Positions 14,682 through 25,408 are shown, counted from the first letter of the stretch. The stretch: DNA of 64,000 bases from Desulfurivibrio dismutans (GCF_029210385.1 NZ_JARGDQ010000005.1:186001-250000); one strand, 5' to 3'. Numbers and translations are program-made. The notes: generated from the letters alone by a model not told the origin.

Positions 14682-17600
14682 GTGAAGTTCACCGAAGCCA
14701 AGCTGGAACAGGCGATCATCACCCTGCTGGAGGAGCAGGGTTACCCGCACTTTCGGGGCGAGGCGCTGGCGCGGCGGCCCGACGAGGTGCTGCTGCGGGA
14801 TGATCTGGGCGAGTTTCTGGCCCGTCGTTACGGCGGCGAGGGGATCACCGCCGGCGAGATTGCTTCCATCTGCCGCCGGCTGGAGCGGCTGCCCGCCCTT
14901 GATCTTTATGAATCCAACCGGACCATCCACCGGCTGGTGGCCGATGGTTTTCTGCTCAAGCGCGAGGATCGCAGCCGCAAGGATCTTTACATCCAACTGA
15001 TCGATTACGCCGGGCTGCCCGCCCAGCGCCTCCCCCGCCCCGGCGAGGTGGAGACCCTGACGGCGGAGCAGTCGCCCGCCTACCGGGCCGACGGCAATAT
15101 CTACCGGCTGGTCAGCCAGTTGGAGGTGGTCGGTCACGAAAAGCGGATTCCCGATGCCGTGCTTTACATTAACGGCCTGCCCCTGGTGGTCTTCGAGTTC
15201 AAGAGCGCCATCCGGGAAGAGGCCACCATTCACGATGCCTACGTCCAACTGACCACCCGCTATGTCCGGGCGATTCCCGAGCTGATGAAGTTCAACGCCC
15301 TCTGCGTGATCAGCGACGGGGTCAACAGCCGGCTGGGCTCGCTGTTTGCCCCCTACGAGTTTTTCTATACCTGGCGCAAGGTCAGCGGCGAGGAAACCAT
15401 CGACCAGGACGGGATCAACGCCCTCCATACCATGATCGCCGGGCTGTTCGACCAAGACCGGTTGCGCCAGGTGATCCGCCATTTCATCTACTTCCCCGAT
15501 GTCTCCAAGCGCGAGGAGAAGGTGGTCTGCCGCTATCCCCAGTTCTACGCGGCGACCAAACTCTACCGCAATATCCTGGCCCACCGGAAGCTGCCGGACG
15601 GCACCGGGGGCGACGGCAAGGGCGGCACCTATTTCGGCGCCACCGGCTGCGGCAAGAGCTTCACCATGCTCTTTCTCACCCGGCTGCTGATGAAGAGCCT
15701 GGAGTTCGAGAGCCCGACCATCGTGCTGATCACCGACCGCACCGATCTCGATGCCCAGCTCGCCCACCAGTTCACCAATGCCAAGGGCTATATCGGCGAC
15801 CAGACGGTGATCAGCGTCGAGAGCCGGGCCCGGCTGCGGGAGCTGCTCAAGGGCCGCAACAGCGGCGGGGTCTTTCTGACCACGGTGCAGAAGTTCACCG
15901 AGGATACCCGGCTGCTCAGCGACCGGGCCAATATCATCTGCATCTCCGACGAGGCCCACCGCAGCCAGGTCAATCTCGACCAGAAGGTGCGGCTGACCGA
16001 AGACGGGGTCCGGCGCACCTTCGGCTTTGCCAAGTACCTGCACGATTCCCTGCCCCATGCCACCTATGTCGGCTTCACCGGCACCCCCATCGACGCCACC
16101 CTGGATGTCTTCGGCCCGGTGGTCGATGCCTACACCATGACCGAGTCGGTGAAGGACGAGATCACCGTGCGCATCGTCTACGAGGGGCGGGCGGCCAAGG
16201 TGATCCTGGACAACGGCAAGCTCGAAGAGATCGAGGCCTATTACGCCAAGTGCGCCGAGGAGGGGGCCAGCGACTACCAGATCGAGGAGAGCAAGAAGGC
16301 CAGCGCCCGGATGCACGCCATCCTGGGCGACCCGGACCGGATTCGGGCCCTGGCGATCGATTTTGTCCACCATTACCAGCGGCGGCTGGAGGAGGGGGCC
16401 AGCGTAATGGGCAAGGCGATGTTCGTTTGCAGCAAGCGCGAGATCGCCTACGCCCTGTGGCGGGAGCTGATCGCCCTGCGGCCGGAGTGGAACCAGGCGC
16501 GGGCCGGCGGCGAAGGGGCGGAATTGAGCGCGGCCCGGCGGCGGGAGATCAAGCCCATGGAGCGGGTCAAGCTGATCATGACCCGGAGTGCGGACGACCC
16601 CAAGGAACTCTACGACCTGCTGGGCACCCCGGAATACCGCAAGGAGCTGGACCGCCAGTTCAAGCAGCCGGAGTCCAACTTCAAGATCGCCATCGTGGTC
16701 GATATGTGGCTCACCGGCTTCGACGTGCCCTTTCTCGACACCATCTACATCGACAAGCCGATCCAGCGCCACAACCTGATCCAGACCATTTCGCGGGTCA
16801 ACCGCCGCTACGCGGGCAAGGAGAAGGGGCTGGTGGTGGACTATATCGGGATCAAGAAGCAGATGAACCTGGCCCTGGCCCACTACAACCAGGCCGACCG
16901 GCAGAACATCGAGGAGATCGGCCAGTCGCTGGTGGTGGTAAGAGATCACCTCGATCTGCTGGGCCGGATCTTTCACCGCTTCGACACCACCGGCTATTTC
17001 CGGGGCAGCCCGGTGGAGCAGCTTAATTGCCTCAACCTGGCGGCGGAGTACGCGCAGATTACCGATAAGATCGAAAAGCGCTTCATGCACCTGGTCAAGC
17101 GCCTCAAGGCCGCCTATGACATCTGCAGCGGCGCAGAAGAGCTGAGCCGGGAGGAGCGCGACCGGATTCACTTCTACCTGGCGGTGCGCTCCATCGTTTT
17201 CAAGCTGACCAAGGGAGATGCCCCGGATACCGCCCGAATGAACGCCCGGGTGCGGGAGCTGATCGGCGAGGCCCTGCAGAGCGCGGGGGTGGAGGAGATT
17301 TTCAAGCTGGGGGAAGACAAGGCCGGGGAAATTGATATCTTCGCCGATGACTACCTGGCCCGGATCGAGAAGATCAAGCTTCCCAACACCAAAATCAAGC
17401 TCCTGCAACAACTGCTGGCCCGGGCCATTGCCGACTTCAAGCAGGTCAACAAGACCCGGGGGCTCGATTTTGCCAAAAAGTTCAAGACCCTGGTGGATGC
17501 CTACAACCAGCGCAAGGAAGAGGATGTGCTGGTCGGCAACGTGCTGGAGGATTTTTCCGTCGAGATCATCGACCTGATCCAGGCCCTGAAAAAGGAGCGC

Positions 17601-17924
17601 GACTCCTTCGCCGATTTAGGCATCGACCTGGAAGAGAAGGCCTTCTACGACATCCTCAAGGATCTGATGATCAAGTATGACTTCACCTACCCCGAGGACA
17701 AACTGCTCGCCCTGGCCAAGGCGGTCAAGCTGGTGGTGGACGACAAGGTCAGATACACCGACTGGAACCAGCGGGCGGACATCAAGGCCGAACTAAAGGT
17801 GGAGCTGATCCTGATCCTGGCCAAGCACGGCTACCCCCCGGTGGACCGCGACGAGGTGTACCGGGAGATCTTCGAACAGGCCGAGAACTTCAAAAAATAC
17901 CAGCAGAACCGTTTGTTGGCCTAA
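14682..17924 (+). CDS. hsdR: Type I restriction enzyme endonuclease/translocase subunit HsdR
   Basis: This 1080-residue protein has the N-terminal nuclease domain with the VVFEFKSA catalytic segment (about residue 170) and the superfamily 2 translocase: Walker A GATGCGKSF (about 320), DEAHRSQ (about 424), TGTPID (about 463) and, in the second RecA domain, the TGFDVPFLDTIYIDKP and QTISRVNRRYAGK motifs. A helical C-terminal domain binds the methylase core. The start is a GTG at 14682 with AGGAGG five bases upstream. It should work with HsdM and HsdS, although it lies 3.2 kb away behind toxin-antitoxin genes. The frame is intact. Confidence 0.95.
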   Translation: MKFTEAKLEQAIITLLEEQGYPHFRGEALARRPDEVLLRDDLGEFLARRYGGEGITAGEIASICRRLERLPALDLYESNRTIHRLVADGFLLKREDRSRKDLYIQLIDYAGLPAQRLPRPGEVETLTAEQSPAYRADGNIYRLVSQLEVVGHEKRIPDAVLYINGLPLVVFEFKSAIREEATIHDAYVQLTTRYVRAIPELMKFNALCVISDGVNSRLGSLFAPYEFFYTWRKVSGEETIDQDGINALHTMIAGLFDQDRLRQVIRHFIYFPDVSKREEKVVCRYPQFYAATKLYRNILAHRKLPDGTGGDGKGGTYFGATGCGKSFTMLFLTRLLMKSLEFESPTIVLITDRTDLDAQLAHQFTNAKGYIGDQTVISVESRARLRELLKGRNSGGVFLTTVQKFTEDTRLLSDRANIICISDEAHRSQVNLDQKVRLTEDGVRRTFGFAKYLHDSLPHATYVGFTGTPIDATLDVFGPVVDAYTMTESVKDEITVRIVYEGRAAKVILDNGKLEEIEAYYAKCAEEGASDYQIEESKKASARMHAILGDPDRIRALAIDFVHHYQRRLEEGASVMGKAMFVCSKREIAYALWRELIALRPEWNQARAGGEGAELSAARRREIKPMERVKLIMTRSADDPKELYDLLGTPEYRKELDRQFKQPESNFKIAIVVDMWLTGFDVPFLDTIYIDKPIQRHNLIQTISRVNRRYAGKEKGLVVDYIGIKKQMNLALAHYNQADRQNIEEIGQSLVVVRDHLDLLGRIFHRFDTTGYFRGSPVEQLNCLNLAAEYAQITDKIEKRFMHLVKRLKAAYDICSGAEELSREERDRIHFYLAVRSIVFKLTKGDAPDTARMNARVRELIGEALQSAGVEEIFKLGEDKAGEIDIFADDYLARIEKIKLPNTKIKLLQQLLARAIADFKQVNKTRGLDFAKKFKTLVDAYNQRKEEDVLVGNVLEDFSVEIIDLIQALKKERDSFADLGIDLEEKAFYDILKDLMIKYDFTYPEDKLLALAKAVKLVVDDKVRYTDWNQRADIKAELKVELILILAKHGYPPVDRDEVYREIFEQAENFKKYQQNRLLA

Positions 17925-18082: not shown

Positions 18083-18334
18083 ATGAAAGCTGTACTGGCA
18101 AGCTGCTCAGCGAGCATATCTGAATTAAAACGTAATCCTACCGCCCTTATCGACCAGGCCGATGGAGAGCCGATAGCTATCCTTAATCACAACAAACCAA
18201 CTGCATATCTTATCCCTGCTGAAACGTATGAAGCTCTGCTGGACAGTATCGAGGACTACCAGCTTGGGATTATTGTAAGAGAAAGGCAAAAAGAGAAAAT
18301 TTCAGCCATCGAAGTGGATATCGATGAACTATAA
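18083..18334 (+). CDS. Phd/YefM-type antitoxin (StbD-like)
   Basis: This 83-residue protein has the Phd/YefM DNA-binding fold: SCSASISELKRNPTALIDQA, then GEPIAILNHNKPTAYLIPAETYEALLD, with an acidic toxin-binding tail. It closely follows the StbD pattern. The ATG at 18083 is preferred because GGTGA lies a few bases upstream; an earlier ATG (18071) is possible. Its end overlaps the toxin gene by 11 bases. The gene is AT-rich compared with hsdR. Confidence 0.87.
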   Translation: MKAVLASCSASISELKRNPTALIDQADGEPIAILNHNKPTAYLIPAETYEALLDSIEDYQLGIIVRERQKEKISAIEVDIDEL

Positions 18335-18617
18335 GCTGAAATTTCTCCCAACAGCCGTTAAGGAATGGAAAAAGCTCGATAACACCGTTCAAACTCAGCT
18401 TAAAAAGAAATTAAAAGAGCGGCTTAAAAATCCTCGTGTGCCATCGAGCCTACTCAGGGGCTTCGAGAATCATTATAAAATCAAATTGTTGGCAAGCGGC
18501 TATCGACTCGTGTACGAAGTTATAGATAACGAAATATGTGTCCTTGTCATTGCAATTGGAAAAAGAGATAAAAACGAAGTCTACAAAAAGGCACGAAAAC
18601 GATACTTCACCGGGTGA
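18324..18617 (+). CDS. RelE-family toxin (StbE-like)
   Basis: This 97-residue protein is a RelE/StbE toxin: LKFLPTAVKEWKKLD, the long basic helix, RGFENHYKIKLLASGYRLVYEV and VLVIAIGKRDKNEVYKKA. The GYRLVYEV and GKRDKNEVY motifs are the family's signature. It is translated from within the end of the antitoxin gene and closes the defence island. Antitoxin-first order distinguishes it from the three modules upstream. Confidence 0.9.
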   Translation: MNYKLKFLPTAVKEWKKLDNTVQTQLKKKLKERLKNPRVPSSLLRGFENHYKIKLLASGYRLVYEVIDNEICVLVIAIGKRDKNEVYKKARKRYFTG

Positions 18618-18745: not shown

Positions 18746-19549
18746 ATGAACGAGCCCAGTCCCCGTTTCTGGAAGATATTCTTTGAGGTTTATGAGCACT
18801 TGCCCAGGCAGGGACCGGGCAATCGTGATTGCGCCGCAAGAGCTCTTCGTCTCTGCGTGGGACTTCCCCGTACACCCATGATTCTGGATTTGGGCTGCGG
18901 AGTCGGCGGGCAAACGCTGCAACTCGCCGAACTGACGACCGGTTCCATCATGGCGATCGACAGCCATGCCCCCAGCATCGAGCGGCTGAAGGCGACACTC
19001 GTTGTGCGAGATCTTTCGCAACGAGTCCAGGCGCAGGTTGGTGATATGGTTCATCTGGAGCTGCCGCCGGAAAGCTTCGACCTGATCTGGTCCGAGGGCG
19101 CGCTCTACAATATCGGGATAGGGAAAGCCCTGCGCATCTGCCATGGATTGCTGCTCCCCGGCGGCTATCTTGCTTTCACTGACGCGGTCTGGCGCAAGGA
19201 GAACCCACCACCGGAGGTTAAGGCAAGCTTCGATCTGGATTACCCAGCCATGGCCACGGCCACTGACGTGGTGACGGCCATCCAGCAGGGCGGCCTTGAT
19301 TTTCTCGGTCGCTTCACCCTGCCGGATGAGGCCTGGTGGGACGACTTTTACTCGCCGATGGAACAGCGCATCAAGGAGTTGCGCGGCAAGTATGACGACG
19401 ATGCCGAGGCGCTTGCCATCCTCGACCAAATCGCGCGGGAACCCGAAATGCACCGTAGATACTCAGAATACTACGCCTATGAATTTTTCGTCGCGCGCCG
19501 TCCTGTATCCCGGAAGGCTGACAACATGAAGAGCTCGAACAGGAAATGA
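18746..19549 (+). CDS. Class I SAM-dependent methyltransferase
   Basis: This 267-residue protein has the Rossmann methyltransferase motifs: ILDLGCGVGGQTLQLA (motif I, about residue 47), the acidic end of strand 2 (MAIDSHAPSIERL) and FDLIWSEGALYNIG (motif IV, about 112). Its substrate is unknown; the family groups with small-molecule methyltransferases. It is the first gene of a seven-gene co-directional run and overlaps the next methyltransferase by four bases. A GGGGG-rich site lies ten or so bases before the ATG at 18746. Confidence 0.85.
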   Translation: MNEPSPRFWKIFFEVYEHLPRQGPGNRDCAARALRLCVGLPRTPMILDLGCGVGGQTLQLAELTTGSIMAIDSHAPSIERLKATLVVRDLSQRVQAQVGDMVHLELPPESFDLIWSEGALYNIGIGKALRICHGLLLPGGYLAFTDAVWRKENPPPEVKASFDLDYPAMATATDVVTAIQQGGLDFLGRFTLPDEAWWDDFYSPMEQRIKELRGKYDDDAEALAILDQIAREPEMHRRYSEYYAYEFFVARRPVSRKADNMKSSNRK

Positions 19550-20283
19550 AAGACACCTGCCACCTCTACACGGACCTGGCGTGGCTGTGGCCCATGTGGG
19601 GTGATGCCACCACGGAATACGCGCACTATTGCCGGCACGTCACGGCTCTGATTCGTCAGTATGCCAAGCGCCCGGCAACCACCTTGCTAAACATCGGGTG
19701 CGGGGGCGGGAAGAACGTCCTGAACCTGAAGCGACAATTCAACGTCACTGGTGTCGATCTGAGTGCCGTCATGCTTGCCCAGGCGAAGGAACTGAATCCG
19801 GAGTGCACGTTCGTCCAGGGCGATATGCGGACATGCAGACTCGGTAGGGCTTTTGATGCCGTGCTGATGGACGATGCGATCTCATACATGAGTTGCCGGA
19901 CGGATTTCGTGGCAGCGTTCCGCACCGCGCATGCCCACCTGAACCCTGGTGGCGTTCTGGTCGCCACTCCGGACGTAACAACCGAGACATTCCAGCAGAA
20001 CAAGACCAGCACCACCTCGGCCACGCGGAACGGATTGGACGTTGTCTTCGTCGAGAACGTGTATGATCCCGACCCCACGGATGAGCAGTATGAAACGACG
20101 ATCATGTATCTCATTCGCGACCACGGACGCCTTCGGATTGAGACCGATCACTGGACCATGGGGGTATTCTCCCTGGACACTTGGAGACATGTTCTGCGCG
20201 AAACGGGTTTCGAGGTGCATGAGGGACGGTACAATCCGGGAGAGGATGATTACACGGTGTTCGCCTGTGTCAAAAAAGGATGA
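19546..20283 (+). CDS. Class I SAM-dependent methyltransferase
   Basis: This 245-residue protein has motif I as LLNIGCGGGKNVLNLK (about residue 46), VTGVDLSAVMLAQAKEL (about 66), FVQGDMR and FDAVLMDDAISYM (about 105). The C-terminal half (residues 150-240) is a beta-rich lid of the kind seen in small-molecule methyltransferases. It is translationally coupled to the gene before it and overlaps the YihY gene by 17 bases. The substrate is unknown; it may act on the same molecule as its neighbour. Confidence 0.85.
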   Translation: MKDTCHLYTDLAWLWPMWGDATTEYAHYCRHVTALIRQYAKRPATTLLNIGCGGGKNVLNLKRQFNVTGVDLSAVMLAQAKELNPECTFVQGDMRTCRLGRAFDAVLMDDAISYMSCRTDFVAAFRTAHAHLNPGGVLVATPDVTTETFQQNKTSTTSATRNGLDVVFVENVYDPDPTDEQYETTIMYLIRDHGRLRIETDHWTMGVFSLDTWRHVLRETGFEVHEGRYNPGEDDYTVFACVKKG

Positions 20284-21214
20284 CAGCATCTACGACAAAC
20301 TTCCCGCTCCGGTGAGGCACTGGCTCGGCATCCTGGCTGCTGCGATCAAGTATTGGCTGGCGAGCCAGGCCTTCATTTATGCCGCAGCCCTGGCATTCTT
20401 CACCGTTTTCTCCATCGCGCCGATCCTGGTAGTGATTGTCACTCTGGTCGGGCTGGTTATTGGCGAGAGTGCTGTCAAGGGTGAACTCTTCGAGCAGCTC
20501 GAGGGGGCTCTCGGCCCGGAAGCGGCAGGTGTGGTGCAGACAGCAGTGATCAATTCGCAGATTGATCAGAGTGGCATCTGGCCGGCGTTGATAGGGATCG
20601 TCGCCACCATCGTCGGTGCCACCACGGTTTTCGCCCAGATGCAGCTGTCCCTGAATCAGATCTGGGACGTTGCGCCACGTCCTTCCAGGAGCAGCATGTG
20701 GATCTTCGTCAAGAGGCGGGTGCTGTCGCTGACCATCATCCTGGCCATCGGGTTCACCCTGTTGGTCTCGTTAATATTGTCAGTGGCTTTGCGTGGCGTG
20801 ATGGTGTTCGCGGAGGAATGGCTACCGGTTCCTGGTTGGGCGATGGTGAGCATGGAGATATTCCTGTCGCTGCTCGTGATCACGCTCCTGTTCGCGGCGC
20901 TGTTCAAGATCCTGCCCGACGTGCTGCTGTCTTGGCGAGACGTCCTGCTCGGTGCGTTCATCACTACAATGCTGTTCACGCTGGGCCGTTCCCTGATCTC
21001 CATCTATCTGGCCTATACTGCGACAACATCGGCCTATGGCGCCGCCGGTTCTCTGGCGCTGCTCCTGATCTGGGTGAACTATTCCTCCATGATCCTCCTG
21101 TTCGGGGCTGCGTTTACCCGGGCGCACCTCGAAGGCAGAGGCATGCCCGTCTTGCCCAAGAGCACGGCGGTTCGTGTGCACCGAGAATTGATCGACGAAG
21201 TGCAGGAAAGCTGA
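20267..21214 (+). CDS. YihY/UPF0761 family inner-membrane protein
   Basis: This 315-residue protein has about six membrane segments and the YihY (BrkB-like) pattern: ASQAFIYAAALAFFTVFSIAPIL at the first helix, GLVIGESAVKGEL, WDVAPRPSRS, then DVLLGAFITTMLFTLGRSLISIYL and ILLFGAAFTRAH. The family's function is not settled; exporter roles have been proposed. A GTG at 20267 is used as start because the hydrophobic family N terminus follows within 30 residues; the longer open frame upstream overlaps the methyltransferase gene. It could export the product of the cluster, which is inference. Confidence 0.85.
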   Translation: MSKKDDSIYDKLPAPVRHWLGILAAAIKYWLASQAFIYAAALAFFTVFSIAPILVVIVTLVGLVIGESAVKGELFEQLEGALGPEAAGVVQTAVINSQIDQSGIWPALIGIVATIVGATTVFAQMQLSLNQIWDVAPRPSRSSMWIFVKRRVLSLTIILAIGFTLLVSLILSVALRGVMVFAEEWLPVPGWAMVSMEIFLSLLVITLLFAALFKILPDVLLSWRDVLLGAFITTMLFTLGRSLISIYLAYTATTSAYGAAGSLALLLIWVNYSSMILLFGAAFTRAHLEGRGMPVLPKSTAVRVHRELIDEVQES

Positions 21215-21249
21215 AGTTGAGGACGTAGCTACGTTCCGCTTACGAGGAG

Positions 21250-21996
21250 ATGATGAAATCGCTGGTTCCCTTCGAGATAGCCCGTCAGCCGGATGAGATT
21301 ACCTGTGGTCCGACCTGTTTGCATGCGATCTATCGCTTTTACCGGGATCAGATCAGTCTTGAGCAGACGATTGCCGAGGTGCCGATGCTCGAAGAGGGGG
21401 GGACGCTCGCCGTGCTGCTCGCCTGCCACGCCCTGGAGCGTGGCTACCGGGCGACTATCTACACCTACAAACTGCAGCTTTTCGATCCGACCTGGGCCGG
21501 GTTGTCGGCGGCAGCGCTTGGTGAAAAACTGAAAGCCCAGGCTCGGTTCAAGCAGGATGAAAAATTGCAGGTTGCCACCACCGCCTATCTCAGGTTTCTT
21601 GAGCTTGGCGGAGAACTGCGGACCAAAGATTTAACCGGCAGAATGCTTCGCGGTTTCCTCAACCAGGGGACGCCGATCATCACCGGGCTGTCGGCAACCT
21701 ATCTGTATCACAGCGCCCGGGAATACGGGCCAAATTGCGATTATGACGATATCCGCGGGGAGCCGTCCGGGCATTTCGTCGTGCTGCACGGCTATGATCA
21801 GCAGCAGCGCATGGTGCATGTCGCCGATCCTTTGCAGAGCAACCCCCTGAGCGAATCGCGGAAATATGCAACAAGCATCGACCGGGTGATTAACTCGATT
21901 TTGCTGGGCGTGTTAACCTATGATGCCAACTTGCTGATAATTCAGCCTGCCAGGGAGAAGAAAAATGCCCAGAGCCATCCTGATCGTCGTCGATGA
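21250..21996 (+). CDS. C39-like cysteine peptidase
   Basis: This 248-residue protein carries the papain-like C39 arrangement: ITCGPTCLHAIYRFY with the nucleophile Cys near residue 19, GHFVVLHGYD with the catalytic His near residue 175, and VADPLQ with the third residue (Asp) near 196. It has no signal peptide and no ABC-transporter domain, so it would act in the cytoplasm. Two ATG codons in a row lie behind an AGGAG site. It overlaps the ATP-grasp gene by 32 bases. Next to two amide-forming ligases, it probably trims or transfers a peptide product. Confidence 0.82.
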   Translation: MMKSLVPFEIARQPDEITCGPTCLHAIYRFYRDQISLEQTIAEVPMLEEGGTLAVLLACHALERGYRATIYTYKLQLFDPTWAGLSAAALGEKLKAQARFKQDEKLQVATTAYLRFLELGGELRTKDLTGRMLRGFLNQGTPIITGLSATYLYHSAREYGPNCDYDDIRGEPSGHFVVLHGYDQQQRMVHVADPLQSNPLSESRKYATSIDRVINSILLGVLTYDANLLIIQPAREKKNAQSHPDRRR

Positions 21997-23449
21997 TCCG
22001 GCGCAGTGGCCCGTTGAAATCGCCGGTGTTGAACGGATCACGGCGCGCGCCTATCTGACCGACCCGGGGTATCAGTCACTGAAAAAGGCCGAAGTATACA
22101 ACCTTTGCCGGTCCTATCGTTATCAGAGCAGCGGTTATTATGTTTCCTTGCTGGCCGCGGCCCGTGGCCACAAACCACATCCCAGCGTCACCGCCGTCCA
22201 GGATCTCAAATCGCAGACGATCATGCGGATCGCCTCGGACGATCTGCAGGAGCTGATTCAGAAGAGCCTGGCCCATATCCAGTCCAAGGAATTCGTCCTC
22301 AGTATCTATTTCGGCCAGAATGTGGCCAAGCGCTATGCCCGACTGGCCGCCCAGCTCTTCAACCTGTTTCAGGCGCCATTGCTGCGAGCTAATTTCGTGG
22401 TTGGGGGGAAAAGCGGCAAGTGGACGCTGGCCAACCTGCGGGTTATTGGTGCCGGCGATATTAGCGAAGAGCACCGGGAATTTGTGGTGGCCGTGGCCCG
22501 GGATTATTTCTCCGGCAAACGCCGACGTGTTACCCGCAAGAAAAACCACCGCTATGATCTGGCGATCCTGGCCAATCCGGAGGAAGCCCAACCGCCATCG
22601 GATGAAAAGGCGTTGAAGCGTTTTGTTCGGGCTGCCGAGCGTGTCGGTTTCTCCACGGAGTTTATCAGCCGCGACGATTTTAGCCGGCTTGGGGAGTTTG
22701 ATGCCCTGCTGATCCGCGAGACCACCAGCGTCAATCATCATACCTACCGCTTTGCCCGCAAGGCGGTGGCAGAGGGGCTGATTGCCATCGACGATCCGGA
22801 GTCGATCCTCAAATGCACCAACAAGGTGTTTCTTGCCGAACTGATGGAACGCAACAATATTCCGGCCCCCAGGACCATGATCGTCCATCGTGACAACCGC
22901 GACCGGGTGGCCGAAGAGCTTGGCTTGCCGGTGGTGCTGAAACAGCCGGACAGTTCCTTTTCACAGGGAGTGGTCAAGGTGACGGAGGCAGCCGCCCTCA
23001 AGGAAGCGGTCAACAAACTGCTCGATAAGTCGGAACTGATCATCGCCCAGGAATACCTGCCAACCGATTACGATTGGCGGATCGGCATTATCGACCGGCA
23101 ACCGCTTTACGCCTGCCGCTACTACATGGTCAAGGGGCATTGGCAGATTATCCAGCATGACAGCAACGGGGTCAGGAATGACGAAGGCAAGTTTGAAACC
23201 CTGCCGATCGAGCACGTGCCGAGCGCCGTGGTCAAAACAGCCCTGAAGGTGGCGAACCTGATCGGCAACGGACTCTACGGGGTCGATTTGAAACAGGTCG
23301 GCAAAAAAGTCTACGTCATCGAGGTCAATGACAACCCGAATCTTGACGCTGGGGTCGAGGATCAGGTGCTTAAAGAAGAGCTCTATTTGCGGGTTATGCG
23401 GGTGATGCTGCGCCGGGTCGAGCGGCGCAAGGAGGGCTGGCCGGCATGA
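21965..23449 (+). CDS. RimK-like ATP-grasp ligase with RLAN domain
   Basis: This 494-residue protein has an N-terminal RLAN-type domain (residues about 1-180, with AEVYNLCRSYRYQSSGYYVSLL) and a C-terminal ATP-grasp domain (about 270-480). Visible ATP-grasp features are the VVLKQPDSSFSQGVVKV Lys loop, QEYLPTDYDWRIGII, and the Mg-binding GVDLKQ ... VIEVNDNPNLDAG end. RimK-type enzymes join amino acids to carboxylates using ATP. The substrate here is unknown. It is coupled to the C39 gene before it and overlaps the GCS2-type gene by four bases. Confidence 0.88.
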   Translation: MPRAILIVVDDPAQWPVEIAGVERITARAYLTDPGYQSLKKAEVYNLCRSYRYQSSGYYVSLLAAARGHKPHPSVTAVQDLKSQTIMRIASDDLQELIQKSLAHIQSKEFVLSIYFGQNVAKRYARLAAQLFNLFQAPLLRANFVVGGKSGKWTLANLRVIGAGDISEEHREFVVAVARDYFSGKRRRVTRKKNHRYDLAILANPEEAQPPSDEKALKRFVRAAERVGFSTEFISRDDFSRLGEFDALLIRETTSVNHHTYRFARKAVAEGLIAIDDPESILKCTNKVFLAELMERNNIPAPRTMIVHRDNRDRVAEELGLPVVLKQPDSSFSQGVVKVTEAAALKEAVNKLLDKSELIIAQEYLPTDYDWRIGIIDRQPLYACRYYMVKGHWQIIQHDSNGVRNDEGKFETLPIEHVPSAVVKTALKVANLIGNGLYGVDLKQVGKKVYVIEVNDNPNLDAGVEDQVLKEELYLRVMRVMLRRVERRKEGWPA

Positions 23450-24696
23450 GTCAAACGGAGTGTCTCCGTCTGTTTGCCGGCTACGGCATCGAACTGGAGT
23501 ATATGATCGTTGACCGCGATTCGCTTGATGTCAGGCCGGTGACCGACCTGTTGTTGGAGCAGGTGGCCGGTACATTGGTCAACGAGGTTGAGATGGGGCC
23601 GCTGTGCTGGTCAAACGAGTTGGTCCTGCATGTCGTGGAACTGAAAACCAACGGCCCCGCCCGGTCGCTGGACGGCCTGGCTTCGGTTTTTCAGGATGGT
23701 GTCGCCCGGGTCAACCAACGTTTGCAGGGGATGAATGCCAGGCTGCTGGGCACGGCGATGCACCCCTGGATGGACCCGCATCGTGAGACGAGGCTCTGGC
23801 CGCACGACAACAGTTCGATCTACGCGACCTACAACCGAATCTTCGACTGCCGCGGGCATGGCTGGTCGAACCTGCAGAGCATGCACATCAACCTGCCGTT
23901 CTGCGGCGACGAAGAGTTCGGTCGCTTGCATGCCGCGATCCGTCTGGTGCTGCCGTTGTTGGCGGCGCTGGCCGCCAGTTCGCCGATCTACGGTGGGACC
24001 AGGAGCGGACTGCTTGACAGCCGGCTGGAGTTCTATCGTCACAATCAGCAAAAGATTCCGCAGATCGCCGGTCAGATCGTTCCGGAGCCGGTATTCTCCA
24101 GGGCGGACTACGAACAGCGGATTCTACAGCGCAGCTATGCGGCGATTGCCCCGTACGACCCGCAGGGGATCCTGCAGGATGAATGGCTCAATTCGCGTGG
24201 CGCGATAGCGCGTTTTGAGCGTGGCGCCATCGAAATCCGGCTGCTGGACCTGCAGGAATGTCCCCTGGCCGATCTGGCCATCGCCGCCCTGGTCTGCGCG
24301 GTGATCCGCGCGCTCTGCCGCGAAACCTGGAGTCCGCTGGCTTGCCAGCAGCAGGTCGGCACCGGACCTTTGGCCGAACTGCTGGTCCGCGTGCTGCAAC
24401 ACGGCGGGGACGAGCTCATCGCCGCGCCCGACTATCTGGCTTGTTTCGGGCTGGCCTGTTTCGGGCATACCGGTGGCCCCCTGCCGGTCTCTTCGTTGTG
24501 GCAACATCTCTATACGGCGGTGGAGGCCGAGGTGGCGCCGGGGTATCATGCCCCGCTGCGGCAGATCCTCGAACAGGGTTCACTGGCGCAGCGTATACTC
24601 CGGGCTCTGCCGCAACAGTTCGGGCGGCGGGATCTTTGCCAACTGTACCGGCGGCTGGCCGATTGTCTTGAACAAGGAGTCTTGTTTGCAAGCTAG
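23446..24696 (+). CDS. GCS2-type glutamate-cysteine ligase family protein
   Basis: This 416-residue protein belongs to the carboxylate-amine ligase group (GCS2, YbdK-like). The metal-binding start GIELEYMI (residues about 14-21) and ELVLHVVELKTNGP are present, as are the SIYATYNRIF and LQSMHINLPF segments and the REYIR-like strand AIEIRLLDLQECP near 263. The family couples an amino acid to the gamma- or alpha-carboxylate of another using ATP. It sits between the ATP-grasp and amidohydrolase genes with four- and 11-base overlaps, a strong sign of joint action. Confidence 0.85.
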   Translation: MSQTECLRLFAGYGIELEYMIVDRDSLDVRPVTDLLLEQVAGTLVNEVEMGPLCWSNELVLHVVELKTNGPARSLDGLASVFQDGVARVNQRLQGMNARLLGTAMHPWMDPHRETRLWPHDNSSIYATYNRIFDCRGHGWSNLQSMHINLPFCGDEEFGRLHAAIRLVLPLLAALAASSPIYGGTRSGLLDSRLEFYRHNQQKIPQIAGQIVPEPVFSRADYEQRILQRSYAAIAPYDPQGILQDEWLNSRGAIARFERGAIEIRLLDLQECPLADLAIAALVCAVIRALCRETWSPLACQQQVGTGPLAELLVRVLQHGGDELIAAPDYLACFGLACFGHTGGPLPVSSLWQHLYTAVEAEVAPGYHAPLRQILEQGSLAQRILRALPQQFGRRDLCQLYRRLADCLEQGVLFAS

Positions 24697-25408
24697 ATCC
24701 GCTTGGCAGTTGATCCTTTCCTGCGAGCACGGGAGCAACCGGGTACCGCCGGAATATGCGGAACTGTTCGGTGCCGCCCGGGAGGTGCTTGCCACCCATC
24801 GCGGTTACGACCTCGGCATTGCCCCCTTGGCCGGACGACTGGCAGAGGTCCTTGGGGTGCCGCTCAGCCTGGCCCCGGTCACCCGGCTGCTGGTTGAACT
24901 CAACCGCTCCCCCGGTCACCCGGAGCTGTTCTCGGAATTCAGCCGGGGATTGCCGGAAAAAGAACGGCACCGGCTGATGGAGCGTTATTATTATCCCTAC
25001 CGGCAGGAAGTAACGGAGCGGATCGAGGCGATAATCGCGGCCGGCGGGGCGGTCTGCCATATCTCGTTGCACAGCTTTACCCCGGAGCTCAACGGCGAGG
25101 TGCGCCAGACTGATATCGGCCTGCTCTACGATCCCCGACGGGTTTTGGAAAGGCGTTTCTGCAGCCAGTGGAAGCACCTGCTGACAGAGCGGCAAGGGAA
25201 ATTTCGGGTGCGGCGCAACTACCCTTATCGCGGCGTAGCCGATGCCTTGGTCACCTCCTTGCGCCGACGTTTTCCCGCCTCCGCCTACCTTGGGCTGGAA
25301 CTGGAGGTGAACCAGAAATGGCCGCTGCAGGGGGGAGAGGCGTGGGTAGAACTGCAGACACTGATACAGCAGAGCCTCTCGGCGCTGCCCTTAGCCCCAC
25401 GGGCATAA
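24686..25408 (+). CDS. N-formylglutamate amidohydrolase family protein
   Basis: This 240-residue protein has the family's CEHGSNRVP start (about residue 14), the HRGYDLGIAPLA segment (about 37), ELNRSPGHP and the CHISLHSFTP motif (about 122) with likely metal-binding His residues. N-formylglutamate amidohydrolases release amino acids from N-acylated forms; relatives inside biosynthetic clusters probably cut other amides. A TTG at 24686 is chosen because AAGGAG lies six bases before it. It overlaps the GCS2-type gene by 11 bases and ends the run. Confidence 0.85.
   Translation: MQARSAWQLILSCEHGSNRVPPEYAELFGAAREVLATHRGYDLGIAPLAGRLAEVLGVPLSLAPVTRLLVELNRSPGHPELFSEFSRGLPEKERHRLMERYYYPYRQEVTERIEAIIAAGGAVCHISLHSFTPELNGEVRQTDIGLLYDPRRVLERRFCSQWKHLLTERQGKFRVRRNYPYRGVADALVTSLRRRFPASAYLGLELEVNQKWPLQGGEAWVELQTLIQQSLSALPLAPRA

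Follow-up and report, generated by a model that had tools for sequence, protein, structure and literature searches.

A 64,000-nucleotide stretch of the Desulfurivibrio dismutans genome (NZ_JARGDQ010000005.1:186001-250000), here called the window, carries between positions 18746 and 25408 of its + strand seven co-directional open reading frames (ORFs), neighbours of which overlap or almost abut. Judged by sequence comparison across phyla, the true unit is made up of four of them, spanning 21250-25408: a C39-type papain-like cysteine peptidase, a ligase that joins an RLAN domain to a RimK-like ATP-grasp domain (RLAN), a GCS2-type ligase and, in some genomes only, an amidohydrolase of the N-formylglutamate amidohydrolase family (FGase). 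We put the probability that these four enzymes make and turn over a small, non-ribosomal capped peptide at roughly one in two. We know of no product for the RLAN module, which is widespread across phyla, and a search of the literature on this gene combination found no account of its function. RLAN ligases were reportedly tied to papain-like peptidases, GNAT proteins and GCS2 by Iyer, Abhiman, Burroughs and Aravind in 2009 in Mol Biosyst, and likewise in the Pfam text for RLAN, with peptide synthesis as the predicted role. The window module is filed as a further member of this predicted RLAN amidoligase kind, with which it shares the RLAN-RimK ATP-grasp ligase, the papain-like peptidase and GCS2. 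The present survey shows the alternation of GCS2 with GNAT, the confinement of FGase to the GCS2 form and the fusion of RLAN with GCS2.

We sampled 80 RLAN loci from named genomes and 120 further stretches (40 from relatives or the phylum, 60 from Pseudomonadota and 20 from Planctomycetota). Profiles derived from the proteins of the window, together with domain boundaries, served to identify the genes at each locus, and removal of duplicates left a non-redundant set of 197 RLAN loci, the window among them. The module occurs in Desulfobacterota, Bacteroidota, Balneolota, Planctomycetota, Verrucomicrobiota, Pseudomonadota and other phyla. Nearly all of the 120 GCS2-type loci keep the order C39, RLAN, GCS2, with FGase next in line in 72, and the first three genes are closely spaced in more than 110 loci from many phyla; the module gene pairs lie within 100 nucleotides (nt) of each other in 110 of 116, 109 of 118 and 66 of 72 cases. 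Pairwise protein distances are correlated for all six module pairs (0.63-0.80, with 0 of 500 permutations as high), a correlation that partly mirrors shared species history. Additionally, two planctomycetes encode the RLAN-ATP-grasp protein and GCS2 fused in a single ORF of 988-1022 amino acids (aa).

Presence across whole genomes follows the same pattern. Of 97 relatives, 35 carry both RLAN and GCS2 of this subtype, 4 have RLAN only, 2 have GCS2 only and 56 have neither (Fisher 1.6e-19, a statistic that ignores phylogeny). Both GCS2-only genomes are partial matches, and each of the four RLAN-only genomes (G063, G080, G085 and G094) has a GNAT gene adjoining RLAN and no GCS2. FGase of this subtype occurs in 13 of the 97, 11 of them with RLAN, and in one of the other two (G092) FGase shares a contig with GCS2. 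On these comparisons the module genes are co-inherited. The sequence-only reading of the window had proposed that two amide-forming ligases act together with amide-cutting enzymes, and for C39, RLAN, GCS2 and FGase this partnership is strongly supported by conserved order, co-inheritance, gene fusion and the genome-wide co-occurrence profile. In one-genome-per-species data, a scan for the RLAN protein alone, with a six-peptide pattern, returned at least 559 encoding stretches. RLAN matches were present in 65 of 246 sampled planctomycete genomes, and these matches include several more RLAN ORFs of about 1000 aa.

The 197 loci fall into 120 of the GCS2 form, 69 with GNAT (45 with a GNAT-C39 fusion and 24 in which GNAT alone was detected) and 8 left unassigned. 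GCS2 stands together with a GNAT-C39 fusion in none of them; on a looser count, one locus (L049) has a GNAT-like gene that is unfused and lies three genes away from RLAN. As judged from these gene neighbourhoods, GCS2 and GNAT are exchangeable partners of RLAN. The Pfam text for RLAN (PF14401) reportedly describes the GNAT-papain fusion form, with GNAT fused to the peptidase as the usual, not universal, companion. The C39 domains of the two forms are related (hhalign probability 95). The C39 protein of the window lacks a GNAT domain by Pfam, GCS2 being present instead as the alternative form, and the whole window genome is devoid of DUF3335, the C39 type that accompanies GNAT. In the tree of RLAN proteins, the two forms make up two well-supported blocks plus stragglers, with two changes in total. 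In three loci (L148, L153 and L155) from one family within the window's order, RLAN is followed by a stand-alone GNAT gene and then by a gene of roughly 200 aa; in L148 the latter encodes a SET-domain protein, and a SET methyltransferase near a RimK-like ligase is unexpected.

FGase occurs with the GCS2 form alone, in 72 of its 120 loci and in none of the 77 others. Within that form its presence, called by profile, switches at least 24 times on the RLAN tree, although some of these changes may reflect missed detections, and it is never seen with the GNAT form; FGase is for this reason best regarded as an optional but recurrent partner of GCS2. Replacement of a missing FGase by another hydrolase was considered and rejected, as the sampled downstream genes of FGase-less loci are mutually unrelated (a transporter, MscS, GH57, GH97, a sigma-54 regulator, a class II amidotransferase and others).

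All four module proteins look like working enzymes, with residue roles assigned from their families. The peptidase gene overlaps RLAN by 32 nt, and its Q13, C19, H175 and D193 are invariant in 45 relatives (numbered from ATG 21250; the alignment, whose first row begins at residue 2, numbers one lower), as expected of a linked papain-like enzyme. The fusion of an RLAN domain (PF14401, residues 27-175) with an ATP-grasp domain (PF08443, residues 286-461) was confirmed in the next protein, in which the metal residues D441, E453 and N455, together with K326, are invariant columns. Its structural model (predicted local distance difference test score, pLDDT, 88.9) best matches ArgX, LysX, Ddl and RimK in the PDB, in matches dominated by the ATP-grasp part. 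GCS2 has invariant E16xE18, H106-P107 and E263xR265 that align with YbdK, so that the ExE metal motif and E-x-R core of the fold are kept; its model (pLDDT 94.5) matches YbdK, plant glutamate-cysteine ligase (GCL) and then PafA and Dop, in that order, with an identity of about 15-16% to YbdK and plant GCL. Both ligase models thus match peptide or amide ligases. Finally, FGase aligns to Atu2144 (2odf) at 1.9e-37, also matches 2q7s, and keeps E12/H13, H36, D40, H123, H127, E203 and E205 (alignment numbering), which align with Atu2144; by its sequence, its name denotes membership of the N-formylglutamate amidohydrolase family.

Two known designs suggest how these activities may be combined. Glutathione is made by GCS followed by an ATP-grasp ligase, and the module likewise pairs a GCS-fold ligase with a following ATP-grasp ligase, as in the GshA/GCS2 type plus GshB. 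It differs in that its GCS2 falls below the NCBIfam cut-offs and its ATP-grasp protein resembles RimK and LysX and carries an additional RLAN domain. The N-acetylglutaminylglutamine amide (NAGGN) pathway is encoded by PA3459-PA3461 and is not known to include an RLAN domain, GCS2 or FGase. By analogy, RLAN systems of the GNAT form resemble it in combining GNAT, an amide ligase, a peptidase and, as proposed here, a small capped peptide. In the NAGGN pathway, the GNAT-family ligase Ngg works with the amidotransferase AsnO, and the operon includes a putative aminopeptidase (PMC8070244). As the GCS2 form follows the design of glutathione and the GNAT form that of NAGGN, we propose that the partner caps an amino acid, which RLAN would then extend.

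In the proposed scheme, GCS2 would use ATP to activate a glutamate-like acid at its side-chain (gamma) carboxylate and couple it to an amino acid, which would thus receive a gamma-acyl cap; in the GNAT form, the same position would be capped with acetyl from acetyl-CoA. The RLAN ATP-grasp ligase would next activate the carboxylate that the capped amino acid still has free, and add the next residue. The papain-like C39 enzyme may then trim, transpeptidate or degrade the product, and FGase may remove or recycle an N-acyl-glutamate-type piece, a step that would be required only with the GCS2-derived cap. We infer by analogy in which order these reactions run, what their substrates are and that the product is a free small molecule. 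Somewhat more tentatively, the RLAN ligase with its interchangeable first step (a gamma-glutamyl-type cap from GCS2 or an acetyl cap from GNAT) may define an uncharacterised class of capped peptides found in hundreds of species. If true, glutathione or NAGGN would have a new functional analogue in this molecule, and one ligase with two capping enzymes predicts two related molecules that differ exactly in the cap. With GCS2 and GNAT exchanged between forms and RLAN fused to GCS2 in some genomes, the question of the product becomes testable.

Three observations weigh against a capped small peptide. The best structural matches of RLAN include LysX and ArgX, whose substrate is the carrier LysW, and RimK, whose substrate is ribosomal protein S6, so that a protein substrate encoded elsewhere would also fit. 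About two changes on the RLAN tree account for the exclusivity of GCS2 and GNAT; the exchange therefore appears to be old and close to a single historical swap, and carries little weight as repeated exclusion. In addition, 48 of the 120 GCS2-type loci lack FGase, which is thus not essential.

The first of these leads to a different proposal, which we consider rather unlikely, namely that RLAN, which is RimK/LysX-like, attaches amino acids to a target or carrier protein, either at its C-terminal carboxylate or on a side chain, with GCS2 adding or capping and C39 or FGase removing the tag. Besides the LysX, ArgX and RimK folds at the top of the RLAN matches, the PafA and Dop matches of GCS2 are consistent with it, and RimK/RimB provides a precedent for a ligase-peptidase pair that works on a protein (PMC12239564). 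However, within 800 nt of the 120 GCS2-type modules there is no conserved small precursor or carrier ORF beyond those shared by close relatives, which speaks against this proposal, though a carrier gene may lie farther away, and also against a ribosomal precursor peptide. The nearest folds to GCS2 are YbdK and GCL, which are small-molecule ligases, and the replacement of GCS2 by GNAT is more readily understood if a small molecule receives a different cap. While the module shares the ATP-grasp fold with RimK/RimB and LysX/ArgX-LysW, and the pairing with a peptidase with RimK, it differs in its extra RLAN domain, in the clan of its peptidase and in having no LysW-like small ORF nearby.

A small molecule might still be a familiar one, and the sequence-only reading had named service of the ligases to a known substrate such as glutathione as a finding that would speak against a distinct pathway. 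We regard glutathione or a close gamma-glutamyl thiol, with C39 acting in the manner of phytochelatin synthase, as improbable. The succession of GCS and ATP-grasp ligase follows glutathione logic, and the RLAN ATP-grasp part weakly resembles glutathione synthetase (NF009110, 9.1e-11; 1gsa, 8e-4), but its score of 41 is far from the glutathione synthetase cut-off of 408. GCS2 likewise stays below the cut-offs for canonical glutamate-cysteine ligase and YbdK, reaching 61.4 bits against 176.4 for the YbdK family (TIGR02050) and 31.9 against 249 for TIGR02048, which places it far under the gshA cut-offs. The GNAT version, moreover, proceeds without a gamma-glutamyl step. With these scores and about 16% identity of GCS2 to YbdK, a canonical glutathione route finds no support for the GCS2 gene.

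Most improbable is a graspetide-like ribosomally synthesized and post-translationally modified peptide (RiPP), in which the ligases would crosslink a precursor, C39 would cut off the leader, and the three ORFs upstream of C39, a YihY/BrkB membrane protein (YihY) and two methyltransferases (MT1 and MT2), would export and decorate the product. Searched by sequence against the PDB, C39 matches best the leader peptidases that belong to bacteriocin exporters, and MT2 weakly matches a daptide RiPP methyltransferase (62 bits, cut-off 175). The lack of a conserved precursor ORF within 800 nt counts against this proposal, C39 has no ABC exporter attached, and neither the methyltransferases nor YihY are conserved neighbours of the module.

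Table 1. Coordinates of the window ORFs and of two planctomycete fusion ORFs
Feature	Position	Strand	Domain match or remark
MT1, class I S-adenosylmethionine (SAM) methyltransferase	18746..19549	+	PF08241; neighbour outside the conserved module
MT2, class I SAM methyltransferase	19546..20283	+	PF13649; neighbour outside the conserved module
YihY/BrkB membrane protein, likely start ATG 20246	20246..21214	+	PF03631, 8.9e-46; neighbour outside the conserved module
C39-type papain-like cysteine peptidase/transferase, 248 aa	21250..21996	+	PF13529 (Peptidase_C39_2), 7.8e-10
RLAN domain + RimK-like ATP-grasp amide ligase, 494 aa	21965..23449	+	PF14401, 1.2e-47; PF08443, 7.8e-10
GCS2-type carboxylate-amine ligase, 416 aa	23446..24696	+	PF04107, 1.6e-26
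FGase-type metal-dependent amidohydrolase (N-formylglutamate amidohydrolase family)	24686..25408	+	PF05013, 1e-25
RLAN-GCS2 fusion ORF	L300:3670-6738	-	planctomycete genome
RLAN-GCS2 fusion ORF	L301:2391-5357	+	planctomycete genome

The layout and naming of the seven genes in the sequence-only reading agree with our analysis: ORF coordinates and spacing bear out seven genes in one direction that overlap or nearly touch, and Pfam matches bear out all seven domain names. MT1 and MT2 match Methyltransf_11 and Methyltransf_25 (2.2e-14 and 7.7e-17), and YihY scores above the cut-off of TIGR00765. MT1 and MT2 overlap by 4 nt, MT2 and YihY by 38 nt and RLAN and GCS2 by 4 nt, and 35 nt separate YihY from C39. 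The FGase start is most likely TTG 24686, which has AAGGAG upstream. On this spacing, a single transcript across all seven genes is plausible in this genome.

Treating all seven as one cluster, however, withstood the comparison only in part. The earlier reading had held that rarity of this neighbourhood elsewhere would count against it, and such rarity applies to MT1, MT2 and YihY, which adjoin RLAN in 1 of the 197 loci, the window itself, but not to the other four genes, which are conserved. The profile survey detected no RLAN-linked homologue of MT1 or MT2 in the 196 other loci. Among 58 relatives the sole close MT1 homologue, 70% identical, belongs to a complete genome of the same genus (G002), where it lies at 2.27 Mb and the module at 0.36 Mb, 1.9 Mb apart. 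Relatives carry their YihY homologues on separate contigs or at a long distance from the module, as in G014 (0.20 Mb against 2.46 Mb for the module). Since linkage to RLAN is confined to the window and homologues of MT1 and YihY are unlinked in relatives, these gene neighbourhoods indicate that MT1, MT2 and YihY are chance or strain-specific neighbours and not parts of the module. One seven-gene system is rejected on this neighbour survey, and the idea that the methyltransferases and an exporter-like membrane protein form an added layer is left without support.

A narrower version, in which all seven genes form a biosynthetic cluster specific to this locus that methylates and exports the product locally, is distinctly improbable. 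The overlaps and the 35-nt gap suggest one transcript here, but the arrangement is seen nowhere else in the survey, the same-genus MT1 ortholog and the YihY homologues of relatives are unlinked, and a toxin-antitoxin and restriction region lies upstream. In that region, directly upstream of MT1, a Phd/YefM-type antitoxin gene (18083-18334) overlaps a ParE-type toxin gene (18324-18617); this stretch (18083-18617) has 40% GC against about 55-58% in its surroundings. An HsdR type I restriction subunit is encoded at 14682-17924 of the window. With HsdR and the toxin-antitoxin pair, the region upstream of the module resembles a variable, defence-rich stretch.

For closest copies, the window module (21250-25408) was compared with L044, L045 and L124. 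The window RLAN is 80% identical to that of a Desulfuromonas metagenome-assembled genome (MAG) and 70% to that of a Krumholzibacteriia MAG, against 59% to the same-genus copy. As the nearest RLAN copies lie outside the genus, the window module looks horizontally acquired.

We also considered further conserved partners of the module, and rejected them, as neighbours clustered by sequence were common to close relatives only. In the window's family, MiaB-, citramalate-synthase- and aspartate-kinase-like genes are among the neighbours of the module. In Pontibacter (L078, L084, L089, L090, L091, L097 and L118), and in this Bacteroidota group only, arginine-pathway-like genes adjoin it, which by sequence reading are argininosuccinate lyase-like, M20 deacylase-like and acetylglutamate kinase-like.

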